DNA of 44,689 nt, taken from NCBI GenBank assembly GCA_902800325.1, contig CADCDW010000008.1:1-44689 (forward strand), read 5' to 3'. Below are positions 36,080-44,610 of the stretch, one piece after another; the stretch's first letter is position 1; each line of letters begins with the position of its first letter. This DNA is from an uncultured Lachnospiraceae bacterium. Lineage in GTDB: Bacteria > Bacillota > Clostridia > Lachnospirales > Lachnospiraceae. Made by a program: the position numbers and the translations under genes. The notes beneath the pieces are model-generated. The model saw only the letters and a program-made list of their open reading frames with translations, was not told where the DNA came from and did not search any database.

Positions 36080-36667
36080 TCACTCATATTCCTTCATAAC
36101 CTCATTAACTGACTCCTCACAGCTTCGCATGGCAAGTATTGTCTTTTGGATAAGCTCCGAAAGCTCAATTCCCATCATTTCTGCTCCCCGCTCAATAACC
36201 TCTCTGGAGCAGCCTGCTGCAAAGATGGCACTCTTATATTTCTTCTTTACGGATTTTACCTCCATATCCTGAACACTTTTTGACGGTCTGATAAGAGCCG
36301 CAGCCCATATAAGACCGGTAAGCTCATCTGTTGCGTAAAGTGTTTTTTCCATATCATGTTCGGGCTTAACATCAACCGTAAGCTCATATCCATGGCTGCA
36401 CACACCGTGAATCACATCCTCGCTTACACCTGCCTCGCGTAAAATCTCAGGTGCCTTTATACAGTGCTCTTCAGGATATTCCTCAAAATCAATATCGTGC
36501 AGAAGTCCGACTATACCCCAGTATTCTTCGTCTTCGCTATAGCCCTCCTCTTTCGCAAACCATTTCATAACTCCCTCTACAGTAAGGGCATGCCTTATAT
36601 GAAACGGATCCTTATTATATTTTTTTAATAACAAAAATGCCTCATCTCTTGTAATATTAGCTTGCAT
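36080..36667 (-). CDS. HD-domain phosphohydrolase, last gene of the nitrogenase-like cluster
   Basis: 195 residues. HD motif with His26 (IRHALTVEGV) and the His57-Asp58 pair (GLLHDIDFEEYPEEH), then HGYELTVD and a Cys-containing C-terminal helix. It belongs to a widespread clostridial HD/HDIG hydrolase family of unknown substrate. It starts 11 bp after K2 with AGGAGA and ends at the terminator, so it is co-transcribed with D2K2. Whether it acts in cofactor or nucleotide metabolism for the reductase is open. Confidence 0.88.
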   Translation of the reverse strand: MQANITRDEAFLLLKKYNKDPFHIRHALTVEGVMKWFAKEEGYSEDEEYWGIVGLLHDIDFEEYPEEHCIKAPEILREAGVSEDVIHGVCSHGYELTVDVKPEHDMEKTLYATDELTGLIWAAALIRPSKSVQDMEVKSVKKKYKSAIFAAGCSREVIERGAEMMGIELSELIQKTILAMRSCEESVNEVMKEYE

Positions 36668-36678
36668 AATTTATCTCC

Positions 36679-37968
36679 TTATAGGTTATCGTAAAGATCC
36701 TCTGTAAAGGTCAAACTTCCGCGATAACCGGTATATGTACGATTAAACACAAGTCTTTCATTCATAGGAAAAGCTGCTGTTATAAACTGTATCCCTTTTT
36801 CAAGTCCGACTTCTTTTTCATTGGTACTGCCGATTAAGAGCGTGATGTCTTCTTCTTCACTCAGAATAGTATCATTAATCTCAAACTGGTCAGCAGTAAA
36901 AACCACCTTAGGCGGTCTTGCATACTCAAGATTGGTTATCCTTTCTATAATTCTTTGCTTATCCTCTTCACGATAGACAGGCTCGGATATAACCACAAGT
37001 ACAGGTGTAAAGCTGTAATCATTGGCAAGGTATCTGGTTATACCTATGGCATTGGTTGCATCTGCCACAACAGCAAAACGTTTCCAGCTAAGTACCCCAA
37101 TCGCCTGACCAAGGTAACTGTACACATAATCTTCTTCCTCGGCAATCACCTTATCTACAAGTGCCTTGTCAAGATTAAGCGCATCGGCAACCTTCCGTAC
37201 AAAGTCGGTTGTATCCGTTGAACCGATAGGATTACCGGCAATTCTTATGGATGGTACCCCGAATTTTTCTTCAAATTTCTTCGCCGGTCCCTTAAATAAC
37301 CATGGATTTATAATTATATTAAGCGCTGCACCGGAGCATTTACGTACATCCTCGATATTCTGATGCTTTGTAAAAAATGTATTGACCTTAAGCCCAAGCT
37401 TGGAGAGTATCCTGTCAATTTCCTCAAGGCTTCCACTCCAAAACGGATCATGATAAGGAACTATACCAAATATATTGACAAGCTTGTCGTCATGCGGCAC
37501 ATTTTCCTCTATAACCTTATCAATCATGGTATTCCATACAACCTCATATCCGAGAGTACTGTCTCCTGCAAAGCCCGGAGTGTCTATAGGATATACACTT
37601 ACTCCCTTAGCCTGAAATTCCTCTGTTACACTGGCTATATCATCACCTATTATACCTGCGGTACAGCCTGTTAAAACAAAATATGCATCAGCATCTATTA
37701 TATCAACTGAACCCTGGATAGTGGTTCTTAGTTTATCCAGACCTCCGAACACAACCTCCTTTTCAAGCATATTGCTTGATGGAATTGAAACACTGCTTAC
37801 AAAGCAGGATGATTTATGACCTGACTGTCCCTGCTCTGCCGCCGATGTCTGCATACAGCAGCCCGGTCCGGAATGAAATATAGGACATACTCTGTCAATT
37901 GCCGCAAGGACAGAGTTTATGCCAGCCAACACACAGCCACCGCGCGGATTTTCCAATATTTGAGACAT
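36679..37968 (-). CDS. Nitrogenase component 1-like protein, beta-type (K2)
   Basis: 429 residues, oxidoreductase/nitrogenase component 1 family. Candidate P-cluster cysteines by alignment to NifK: Cys12 (GGCVLAG), Cys37 (FHSGPGC, followed by an additional Cys38) and Cys102 (LTGCTAGIIGDD). It is shorter than NifK (about 520), lacking the N-terminal extension. The C-terminal NRTYTGYRGSLTFTEDLYDNL parallels the NifK end. It pairs with D2, from which it is separated by 154 bp containing twin direct repeats. AGGAGG ribosome binding site. Confidence 0.92.
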   Translation of the reverse strand: MSQILENPRGGCVLAGINSVLAAIDRVCPIFHSGPGCCMQTSAAEQGQSGHKSSCFVSSVSIPSSNMLEKEVVFGGLDKLRTTIQGSVDIIDADAYFVLTGCTAGIIGDDIASVTEEFQAKGVSVYPIDTPGFAGDSTLGYEVVWNTMIDKVIEENVPHDDKLVNIFGIVPYHDPFWSGSLEEIDRILSKLGLKVNTFFTKHQNIEDVRKCSGAALNIIINPWLFKGPAKKFEEKFGVPSIRIAGNPIGSTDTTDFVRKVADALNLDKALVDKVIAEEEDYVYSYLGQAIGVLSWKRFAVVADATNAIGITRYLANDYSFTPVLVVISEPVYREEDKQRIIERITNLEYARPPKVVFTADQFEINDTILSEEEDITLLIGSTNEKEVGLEKGIQFITAAFPMNERLVFNRTYTGYRGSLTFTEDLYDNL

Positions 37969-43697: not shown

Positions 43698-43767
43698 CTG
43701 TTAAGCCTCCTAAATATTCATAAAATAATAATTCTACCTTGTATCTTATCTATACACTTTACGATTT

Positions 43768-44610
43768 TTAAATCTGATAATCATCTTCCATAAGTCCGAA
43801 CTCAAAAAGTATCTCCTCAAGTCTTTCCTGTGTCATAGGCGTAGGAATTGCAAAATTCTCATTGTTTATTACCGCCTCGGCAAGATTTCTGTATTCCTGT
43901 GCCTGAGCTGAATCAGGCTTATATTCTATAACCGTCTTCTTATTTATCTCCGCTCTTTGAACTATATTGTCTCTCGGTACAAAATATAAAAGCTGGGTTC
44001 CGAGTTCCTTTGCAAATGCGCGAAGGAGGTCAAGTTCTCTGTCTACGTTACGGCTGTTACATATGATTCCACCAAGTCTGACACCGCCGGTTCTTGCATA
44101 TCTTTTTATACCCTTGGCAATATTATTGGCTGCATAAAGAGCCATCATCTCTCCACTGGCAACTATGTATATCTCCTTTGCCTTACCTTCTCTAATCGGC
44201 ATTGCAAAACCACCGCAGACAACATCACCGAGAACGTCATAAAATACATAATCCAAATCCTCTGTATATGCACCGAGGTTTTCAAGCATATTTATCGAAG
44301 TGATAATTCCTCGACCTGCACATCCTACACCCGGTTCAGGACCGCCTGACTCAACACACTTTGTTCCGCCATATCCCTCTCTCATAATTCTGTCAAGCTC
44401 GATATCCTCGCCCTCATCACGTATGGTATCAAGTACAGTCTTTTGAGCAAGTCCTCCAAGCAAAAGTCTTGTTGAATCCGCCTTAGGATCACAGCCTACA
44501 ACCATAACCTTCTTACCATGTTCACAAAGTCCCGCCGTAAGATTTTGCGTTGTTGTTGACTTTCCTATTCCACCTTTTCCGTATATTGCTATCTGTCTTA
44601 TTTCTCCCAT
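43768..44610 (-). CDS. nifH: Nitrogenase iron protein-like reductase
   Basis: 280 residues, P-loop ATPase that would donate electrons to the DK partners. Walker [10 protein letters not shown] (11-19). The [4Fe-4S] ligands are at Cys97 ([12 protein letters not shown], with Arg100) and Cys132 ([16 protein letters not shown]), the same numbers as in A. vinelandii NifH. This looks like a genuine NifH-class protein and unlike the more distant BchL/CfbC. The ATG at 44610 follows AAAGGA; the frame start at 44667 adds a non-homologous basic tail. It is the first visible gene of the cluster; upstream genes lie outside the window. Confidence 0.95.

Follow-up and report, generated by a model that had tools for sequence, protein, structure and literature searches.

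We describe a nitrogenase-like locus near the end of a contig from an uncultured Lachnospiraceae bacterium (G000:C8, 44,689 bases; this complete contig is called the window below). Eight genes, all on the minus strand, encode a single NifH-type reductase, a first component-1 alpha/beta pair (D1K1), a NifX-like protein, an Rrf2-family regulator, a second alpha/beta pair (D2K2) and an HD-domain protein (Table 1). From comparison of their sequences, the locus probably specifies a NifB-dependent C-S reductase (D1K1) together with an accessory second reductase (D2K2), set in a sulfur-acquisition island. The first-pass annotation of this DNA had named one NifH and two full DK-type pairs, with the NifX-like protein and the Rrf2 regulator between them and the HD protein at the end, and open reading frames and profile matches bear this out.

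The locus would be the truncated remainder of a nifB-nifX-nifH-D1K1-nifX-rrf2-D2K2-HD operon. NifB, encoded beyond the contig end, would build an [Fe8S9C] L-cluster, and the single NifH would deliver ATP-driven electrons to two different component-1 enzymes. D1K1, a member of the methylthio-alkane reductase (MAR) branch, would carry a P-cluster and hold [Fe8S9C] through the equivalents of Cys270 and His429 of MarD, and we infer that it cuts a C-S bond in an organic sulfur compound that the cell takes up. The freed thiol or sulfide would then enter cysteine/methionine synthesis through CysK-like, CysE-like and cystathionine-type pyridoxal phosphate (PLP) enzymes. D2K2, a separate class, would act as an accessory second reductase with the same NifH and NifB, most likely with an additional or different organosulfur compound from that pathway as its substrate and with its cluster ligated differently.

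Phylogeny and cluster ligands of the two pairs

All four component-1 proteins match PF00148 (239–279 bits), and for each the best solved relative is a MAR subunit of Rhodospirillum rubrum (scores in Table 1). Identity to R. rubrum MarD is 36% for D1 and 33% for D2; three MarD orthologues among 299 genomes of the phylum are 72–81% identical to it. No component-1 protein comes near the NifD, NifE, NifK or NifN cut-offs: D1 and D2 score 168 and 172 bits with the nitrogenase alpha model TIGR01862 (cut-off 486), and K1 and K2 lie equally far below the NifK and NifN cut-offs.

In a maximum-likelihood tree of 38 D rows with bootstraps, the 28 rows of the Mar-type branch are split from the 10 rows of NifD, alternative NifD and NifE at 100/100. 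For this tree, rows L166, L168, L170, L181, L016, L019 and L063 were dropped and five NifD/NifE rows added; the phylum NifD and alternative-NifD rows were checked against NCBIfam cut-offs, while the labels of the NifE rows and of two more NifD rows come from their position in nif clusters. D1 falls in a 16-row clade with MarD (100/100), and D2 forms with three relatives a clade of its own (100/99) that adjoins the D1/MarD clade at 87/86. The K tree, run as a short search only, agrees. A constraint placing D2 with NifE is rejected by the approximately unbiased test (p-AU 4e-70), as is one uniting D1 and D2 (p-AU 3.8e-5), which disposes of the possibility, raised earlier, that one pair is a recent copy of the other. 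The component-1 phylogeny proposed in the first-pass annotation thus confirms its judgement that there is no clear NifDK or NifEN among the two pairs and places both in the Mar-type branch. By sequence, D2 is a second, undescribed class of Mar-branch alpha subunit.

Residues were numbered after passages of the MAR structure paper (PMC12552129) and counted on non-identical homologues (D1 n=36, D2 n=83, K1 n=42, K2 n=74). In D1, the equivalents of Cys66, Cys91, Cys158, Cys270, Trp195, Phe199, His375, Arg428 and His429 are present in 36/36, and those of MarD His194 and Cys73 in 0/36. D2 keeps Cys66, Cys91, Cys158, Cys270 and Phe199 in all 83 homologues; a deletion in Loop I has removed Arg428-His429 in every one of them, and with Thr at the His375 position and Cys at that of Trp195, all 83 are without the pocket Trp and His. 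K1 carries the equivalents of Cys32, Cys56 and Cys121 in 41/42, 42/42 and 42/42, and K2 all three P-cluster cysteines in 74/74. Both pairs thus have the six P-cluster cysteines of MAR (MarD 66, 91, 158; MarK 32, 56, 121), and the Arg428-His429 of Loop I is present in D1 and absent from D2. D1K1 may be called MAR-like rather than MAR, and D2K2, judged by its ligand loop, is not a MAR.

The Cys270 equivalent of D2 is C260, and the residue before its GYDG motif is Met433, at the position that we take to be that of His442 in NifD. Because Loop I carries a deletion and Met433 precedes GYDG, D2 is without both known strong second ligands. His424, Cys180, Cys338, His381 and His281, candidates for a second ligand, are each invariant (83/83). 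The second ligands of MAR and NifD differ and D2 has neither, which would add, with D2, a new mode of cluster binding to the evolution of nitrogenases.

Members of a third Mar-type clade keep His429 without Arg428 (7/7 rows), and in three of them (L160, L162, L018) K precedes D. The long-branched Mar-type row L181 has neither residue.

The gene order and content of the locus mimic nifBHDKEN, its NifH passes the nifH equivalog cut-off (394 bits, TIGR01287) and NifB lies upstream in relatives, all of which would suit an ordinary nif operon for N2 fixation, with D1K1 as NifDK, D2K2 as NifEN and nifB upstream. We regard this as highly improbable, given the 100/100 split, the rejection of D2 as NifE, component-1 scores far under all Nif cut-offs and the Mar-type ligand loop of D1; MAR itself reduces no N2, according to passages of PMC12552129. 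Furthermore, in a screen of 48 handles from 47 genomes with the locus or a relative, nitrogenase alpha scored over the cut-off in a single handle, and it did so in 6/6 positive controls.

The first-pass annotation had also suggested a built-in scaffold. In such a reading D2K2, having arisen independently of NifEN, would bind the L-cluster loosely through a single Cys, perhaps alter it and hand it on to D1K1, as a NifEN-like scaffold or maturase. Retention of C260 and the lack of a strong second ligand in both known places speak for this, the more so as NifE shows a similar pattern, with Cys250 and a weak Gln419 as L-cluster ligands (according to passages of PMC13031127), and so does the near restriction of D2 to D1 genomes with one NifH and one NifB (see below). 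However, D2K2 has all six P-cluster cysteines, whereas NifEN has an [Fe4S4] O-cluster, and D2 does not group with NifE. D1 is moreover found without D2 in half of its genomes, a divergent D2K2 (45% identity) occurs without D1 in G161, and no D1 alignment column tracks the presence of D2 in a comparison of 12 D2-positive with 12 D2-negative genomes (the best value is attained in 24% of 200 permutations). The scaffold is therefore the weaker reading, and we consider it doubtful.

One NifH, one NifB and the co-occurrence of the pairs

A scan of the contig collection with a D2 alignment gave 453 relatives, the best 80 of which were kept as named loci; the 44 genomes reached through these loci, plus G000, G047, G160, G161, G129 and G171, make up a set of 50. 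NifH over the cut-off is present in 44 of the 50, in single copy except in G534 (Ruminiclostridium hungatei, five copies), and was not found in G508, G510, G514, G515, G516 and G536; eight further NifH matches in seven other genomes are under the cut-off. NifB is present in 39/44 genomes, again in single copy except in G534. Nearly all genomes having them thus carry a single NifH over the cut-off and a single NifB, in agreement with the earlier proposal that one reductase gene serves two pairs. In 43 of the 44 genomes whose NifH passes its cut-off, no nitrogenase alpha does; the exception is again G534.

The earlier remark that no nifB is visible holds for the window, and a nifB search of the source draft genome (97.2% complete, 145 contigs) matched only the NifX-like gene. 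As a property of the locus, the absence is rejected. The order nifB-nifX1-nifH-...-D2-K2, on one strand, is found in 18/18 of those loci, among the 80, that have nifB in the flank, with D1 or K1 called between nifH and D2 in 17 of the 18 (the exception is L124). The alignment with L073 extends as far as the window's final base, beyond which L073 runs on into nifX1 and nifB. Since L073 and other relatives carry these two genes directly upstream of nifH, the missing nifB can be put down to assembly and the contig edge, and from the relatives we infer that the nifB of the source genome lies beyond the contig end.

The NifB homologues of D2 genomes score 234–273 bits against a cut-off of 344 (G534 apart), at least partly because the NifX domain is a separate gene. 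The motifs of NifB are kept: HPC, CX3CX2C, AGPGD and CxxCR in 18/18 homologues, and ERPG/SRPG in 17/18. In true nif clusters of the same family (L212-L215), a frame of 782–911 aa is NifB in part and NifN-like at its start, an apparent NifN-NifB fusion.

D2 is nearly confined to genomes with D1, while D1 is often alone. Among 397 genomes of the family, 26 have a D1 orthologue (at least 61% identity), which is partial in G151 and in G567 (112 residues). A D2 orthologue (at least 68%) is present in 13, and each of these 13, G567 included, also has D1. The D2 query was run on the 44 genomes flagged by the D1 query at E 1e-60, a threshold within reach of D2 itself; Fisher tests give 1.3e-17 on the 397 genomes and 2.0e-4 on the 44 flagged ones (13/26 vs 0/18 genomes with other Mar-type D). 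Of the 13 genomes with D1 and without D2, 4 are <90% complete. G161 and G146, in which no D1 ortholog occurs, each have a divergent D2-like gene (45% and, in the third clade, 38%) that was left out of the D2 count. Among 50 genomes with D2, drawn from the 80 loci, 45 have D1, one of them as a fragment. G508, G514, G515 and G516 lack D1, NifH and NifB; G536 lacks D1 and NifH and has NifB; G510 has neither NifH nor NifB, and its D1 is a fragment cut off where the contig ends. Apart from G536, we read these as probably incomplete metagenome-assembled genomes. At least six genomes occur in both samples (G535=G182, G524=G112, G510=G567, G509=G076, G523=G639 and G540=G642, by identical coordinates or DNA); within one tally, only G535/G182 is counted twice, in the nitrogenase-alpha screen.

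The spacing of D1 and D2 in 35 D2 genomes is variable: <=6 kb in 10 and <=20 kb in 22, with the two on different contigs in 13. In G047 and G160, D2K2 stands with nifB and nifH and D1K1 lies elsewhere. Such separation fits a pair of unrelated paralogous reductases that are neighbours in one sulfur island and draw on a common NifH and NifB, acting on separate substrates and with no pathway step in common. We hold this to be quite unlikely: the presence of D2 in half of the D1 genomes and in none of the 18 with other Mar-type D (ancestry uncorrected) argues against it, as does the fact that Treponema, too, carries both pairs together.

In Treponema and a Spirochaetaceae metagenome-assembled genome (L130, L134, L138, L151), D1 and D2 are 84–88% identical to those of the window, which suggests transfer between phyla. 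The divergent D2K2 locus of G161 (L054) has its own nifH and adjoins an oligopeptide-type ATP-binding cassette (ABC) importer and a C1-family peptidase.

Gene content and sulfur-gene neighbourhood

Downstream of the eight genes, the window holds an ABC importer whose best matches are cystine transporters, an amidohydrolase, a LysR-family regulator, a MATE-family exporter and a PatB-family C-S lyase (Table 1).

Table 1. Genes of the locus and its downstream neighbours in the window
Feature	Coordinates	Strand	Matches and remarks
nifH, Fe-protein reductase, 280 aa, ATG at 44610	43768..44610	-	TIGR01287 463 bits
D1, MAR-type alpha subunit, 487 aa	42234..43697	-	PF00148; MarD 9fmg_A 318 bits
K1, MAR-type beta subunit, 432 aa	40936..42234	-	MarK 9d9u_C 390 bits
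NifX-like protein, Cys/Gly-rich insert, 159 aa	40301..40780	-	PF02579 48.4 bits
Rrf2-family regulator, nearest CymR/IscR, 140 aa	39639..40061	-	PF02082
D2, second, divergent alpha subunit, 480 aa	38123..39565	-	MarD 244 bits
K2, second beta subunit, 429 aa	36679..37968	-	MarK 233 bits
HD-domain protein, 195 aa	36080..36667	-	PF01966 24.6 bits, cut-off 22
ABC importer solute-binding protein (SBP_bac_3)	34928..35983	-	profile match
ABC importer permease	34115..34897	-	best match cystine permease 165.7 bits, cut-off 300
ABC importer ATPase	33357..34115	-	best match cystine TcyN 312 bits, cut-off 406
Amidohydrolase	31916..33184	-	PF01979; 68% homologue beside D1 in L053
LysR-family regulator	30789..31700	-	homologue in 19/80 D2 loci
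MATE-family exporter	29228..30568	-	homologue in 6/80 D2 loci
PatB-family C-S lyase (beta-lyase)	28018..29253	-	TIGR04350 417.8 bits, cut-off 340; homologue in 11/80 D2 loci

Neighbour families around D2 were typed from one scanned representative per cluster. Across the 80 loci they comprise CysK-like proteins (30 loci), LysR regulators and nitrate/sulfonate-type permeases (19 each), SsuA-type binding proteins (17), NifS and PatB (11 each), CysE-like proteins (10), and NifU, MoeB/rhodanese and cystathionine-type PLP enzymes (8 each); NifS, NifU, PatB and a MoeB model pass their NCBIfam cut-offs. A CysK-like gene lies <=6 kb from D1 in 32/37 genomes, and 65 of 139 CysK-like copies are <=6 kb from D1 or D2. 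SsuA-type (sulfonate/nitrate-type) binding proteins lie within 12 kb of D1 or D2 in 18/27 cases and within 6 kb in 8/27. In L072-L074, CysK stands between nifH and D1, a place that is empty in the window (43697-43768) and in L077. Together with phylogeny and ligand residues, this neighbourhood supports the earlier suggestion of a reductase for sulfur compounds.

Several observations weigh against a C-S reductase with an accessory partner. Most neighbours (the CysK, CysE, transporter and cystathionine matches) are under their NCBIfam cut-offs, and 11 of 37 genomes are without a sulfonate/nitrate-type binding protein. CysK-like genes lie <=6 kb from D2 in only 13/35 genomes and are also found near D1 where D2 is absent (G129, G171), so they are not informative about D2 specifically. 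Neighbourhood counts, co-occurrence counts and Fisher tests all ignore shared ancestry, and 5 of the 50 D2 genomes have no D1. A clade of D1 with the three true MAR rows alone is borderline rejected (p-AU 0.0425); with 36% identity to MarD as well, the substrate of D1 may differ from that of MAR, which frees methanethiol and a hydrocarbon from methylthio-alkanes. By bit scores, the reductase of the window is NifH-type and not MarH-type, its nearest solved chain being Clostridium pasteurianum NifH (1cp2, 476 bits vs 290 bits for MarH). D2 without a second cluster ligand may hold no catalytic cluster, or a transient one.

A more specific division of labour, complete reductive desulfurization, seems unlikely: D1K1 would convert thioether to thiol, and D2K2, with [Fe8S9C] held by one Cys and another ligand, thiol to sulfide for cysteine synthase. 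If it were true, small hydrocarbons, methane included, would be released in rumen and gut without methanogens, and most of the 'cluster III' nifH reported for the guts of humans and ruminants would stem from this locus.

Of the remaining genes, the NifX-like protein scores only 34–37 bits with nifX and nifB C-terminal domain models, under their cut-offs, and the Rrf2 regulator 137.7 bits with the CymR model (cut-off 195). The Cys/Gly-rich insert of the former is possibly a metal- or cluster-binding tail. Its 39 orthologues in the 80 loci have 4–9 Cys each, in arrangements that differ among the 14 inspected. The HD protein has a 68% homologue in a D1-only island (L071).

Gut nifH sequences and comparison with known systems

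Passages of PMC4995403 (2016) put forward relatives of Lachnospira and Butyrivibrio nifH, of 'cluster III', as candidate human-gut nitrogen fixers, in species that had not been tried, and report them in 11–32% of people from four populations. One gut operational taxonomic unit shared 98% identity with NifH from Lachnospira multipara and 97% with its Butyrivibrio counterpart; another was >97% identical to the NifH proteins from a Lachnospiraceae strain, Ruminococcaceae AE2021 and Prevotella bryantii. The Butyrivibrio genomes G542-G544 carry their sole NifH ~1.1 kb from D1 and lack a nitrogenase alpha over the cut-off. By annotation alone, the locus, once completed by the relatives' nifB, would count as diazotrophic under the minimal nifHDKENB rule. 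Gut and rumen bacteria that are classed as nitrogen fixers from their nifH may thus be scavenging sulfur, which points to anaerobic sulfur scavenging in the rumen with possible release of methane or ethylene, and whether gut Clostridiales fix nitrogen becomes directly testable.

No description of the two-pair system as such was found in the literature searched (titles, starts of abstracts and passages), and the passages of PMC5787071 and PMC11659671 hold nothing bearing on it. In the Clostridium indolis genome, the order D-K-H-(one gene)-D-K-NifX is filed under nitrogen fixation (Table 8 in the excerpts of PMC4149025). CfbCD, with a homodimeric D and no K, is rejected as a match, each D of the window having its own K. 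Isethionate reductase IsrBHDK (PMC11423573) resembles the locus in nitrogenase-like C-S cleavage with a radical SAM partner and in the sulfonate/nitrate-type importer near many D1/D2 loci; according to its authors, IsrB and NifB have only the radical SAM motif in common. Membership is rejected, as IsrD has one P-cluster Cys and no Cys275, whereas D1 and D2 keep all four cysteines. The group IV-A MarHDK-like genes near type I mlp clusters (PMC10418091) likewise come as Mar-like pairs in anaerobes among sulfur genes, but no corrinoid methyltransferase is among the window genes scanned. In G146 (L062:3572-14108), another Mar-type pair is flanked on both sides by a URO-D-type gene; a RACo activator, NifH, NifX and NifB come next, an arrangement that resembles these mlp clusters.

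Mo-nitrogenase nifHDKEN-B clusters share with the locus their gene order, NifH, NifX, NifB (in relatives) and two DK-like pairs, but neither pair of the window is NifDK or NifEN and its component-1 proteins are far from Nif cut-offs. In NifEN, the O-cluster is held by three NifE Cys with one NifN Cys nearby (passages of PMC13031127). D2 and NifE both keep one Cys ligand with no strong second at the known places; unlike NifEN, D2K2 has six cluster cysteines, and D2 lies outside the NifE group.

North et al. (2020, Science) reportedly gave the first account of MAR. Compared with MarBHDK of R. rubrum (9FMG, PMC12552129), the window adds a second DK pair and cysteine-synthase-like neighbours in related loci, and its D1, at 36% identity, does not keep Cys73 and His194. 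D1 belongs to the wider 16-row MarD clade, in which it is borderline apart from the true MAR rows, and D2 lies outside it. In common with MAR, D1K1 has the six P-cluster cysteines, Cys270, Arg428-His429, Trp195, Phe199 and His375, a NifB-like maturase gene upstream in relatives (18/80 loci) and a context of sulfur salvage.

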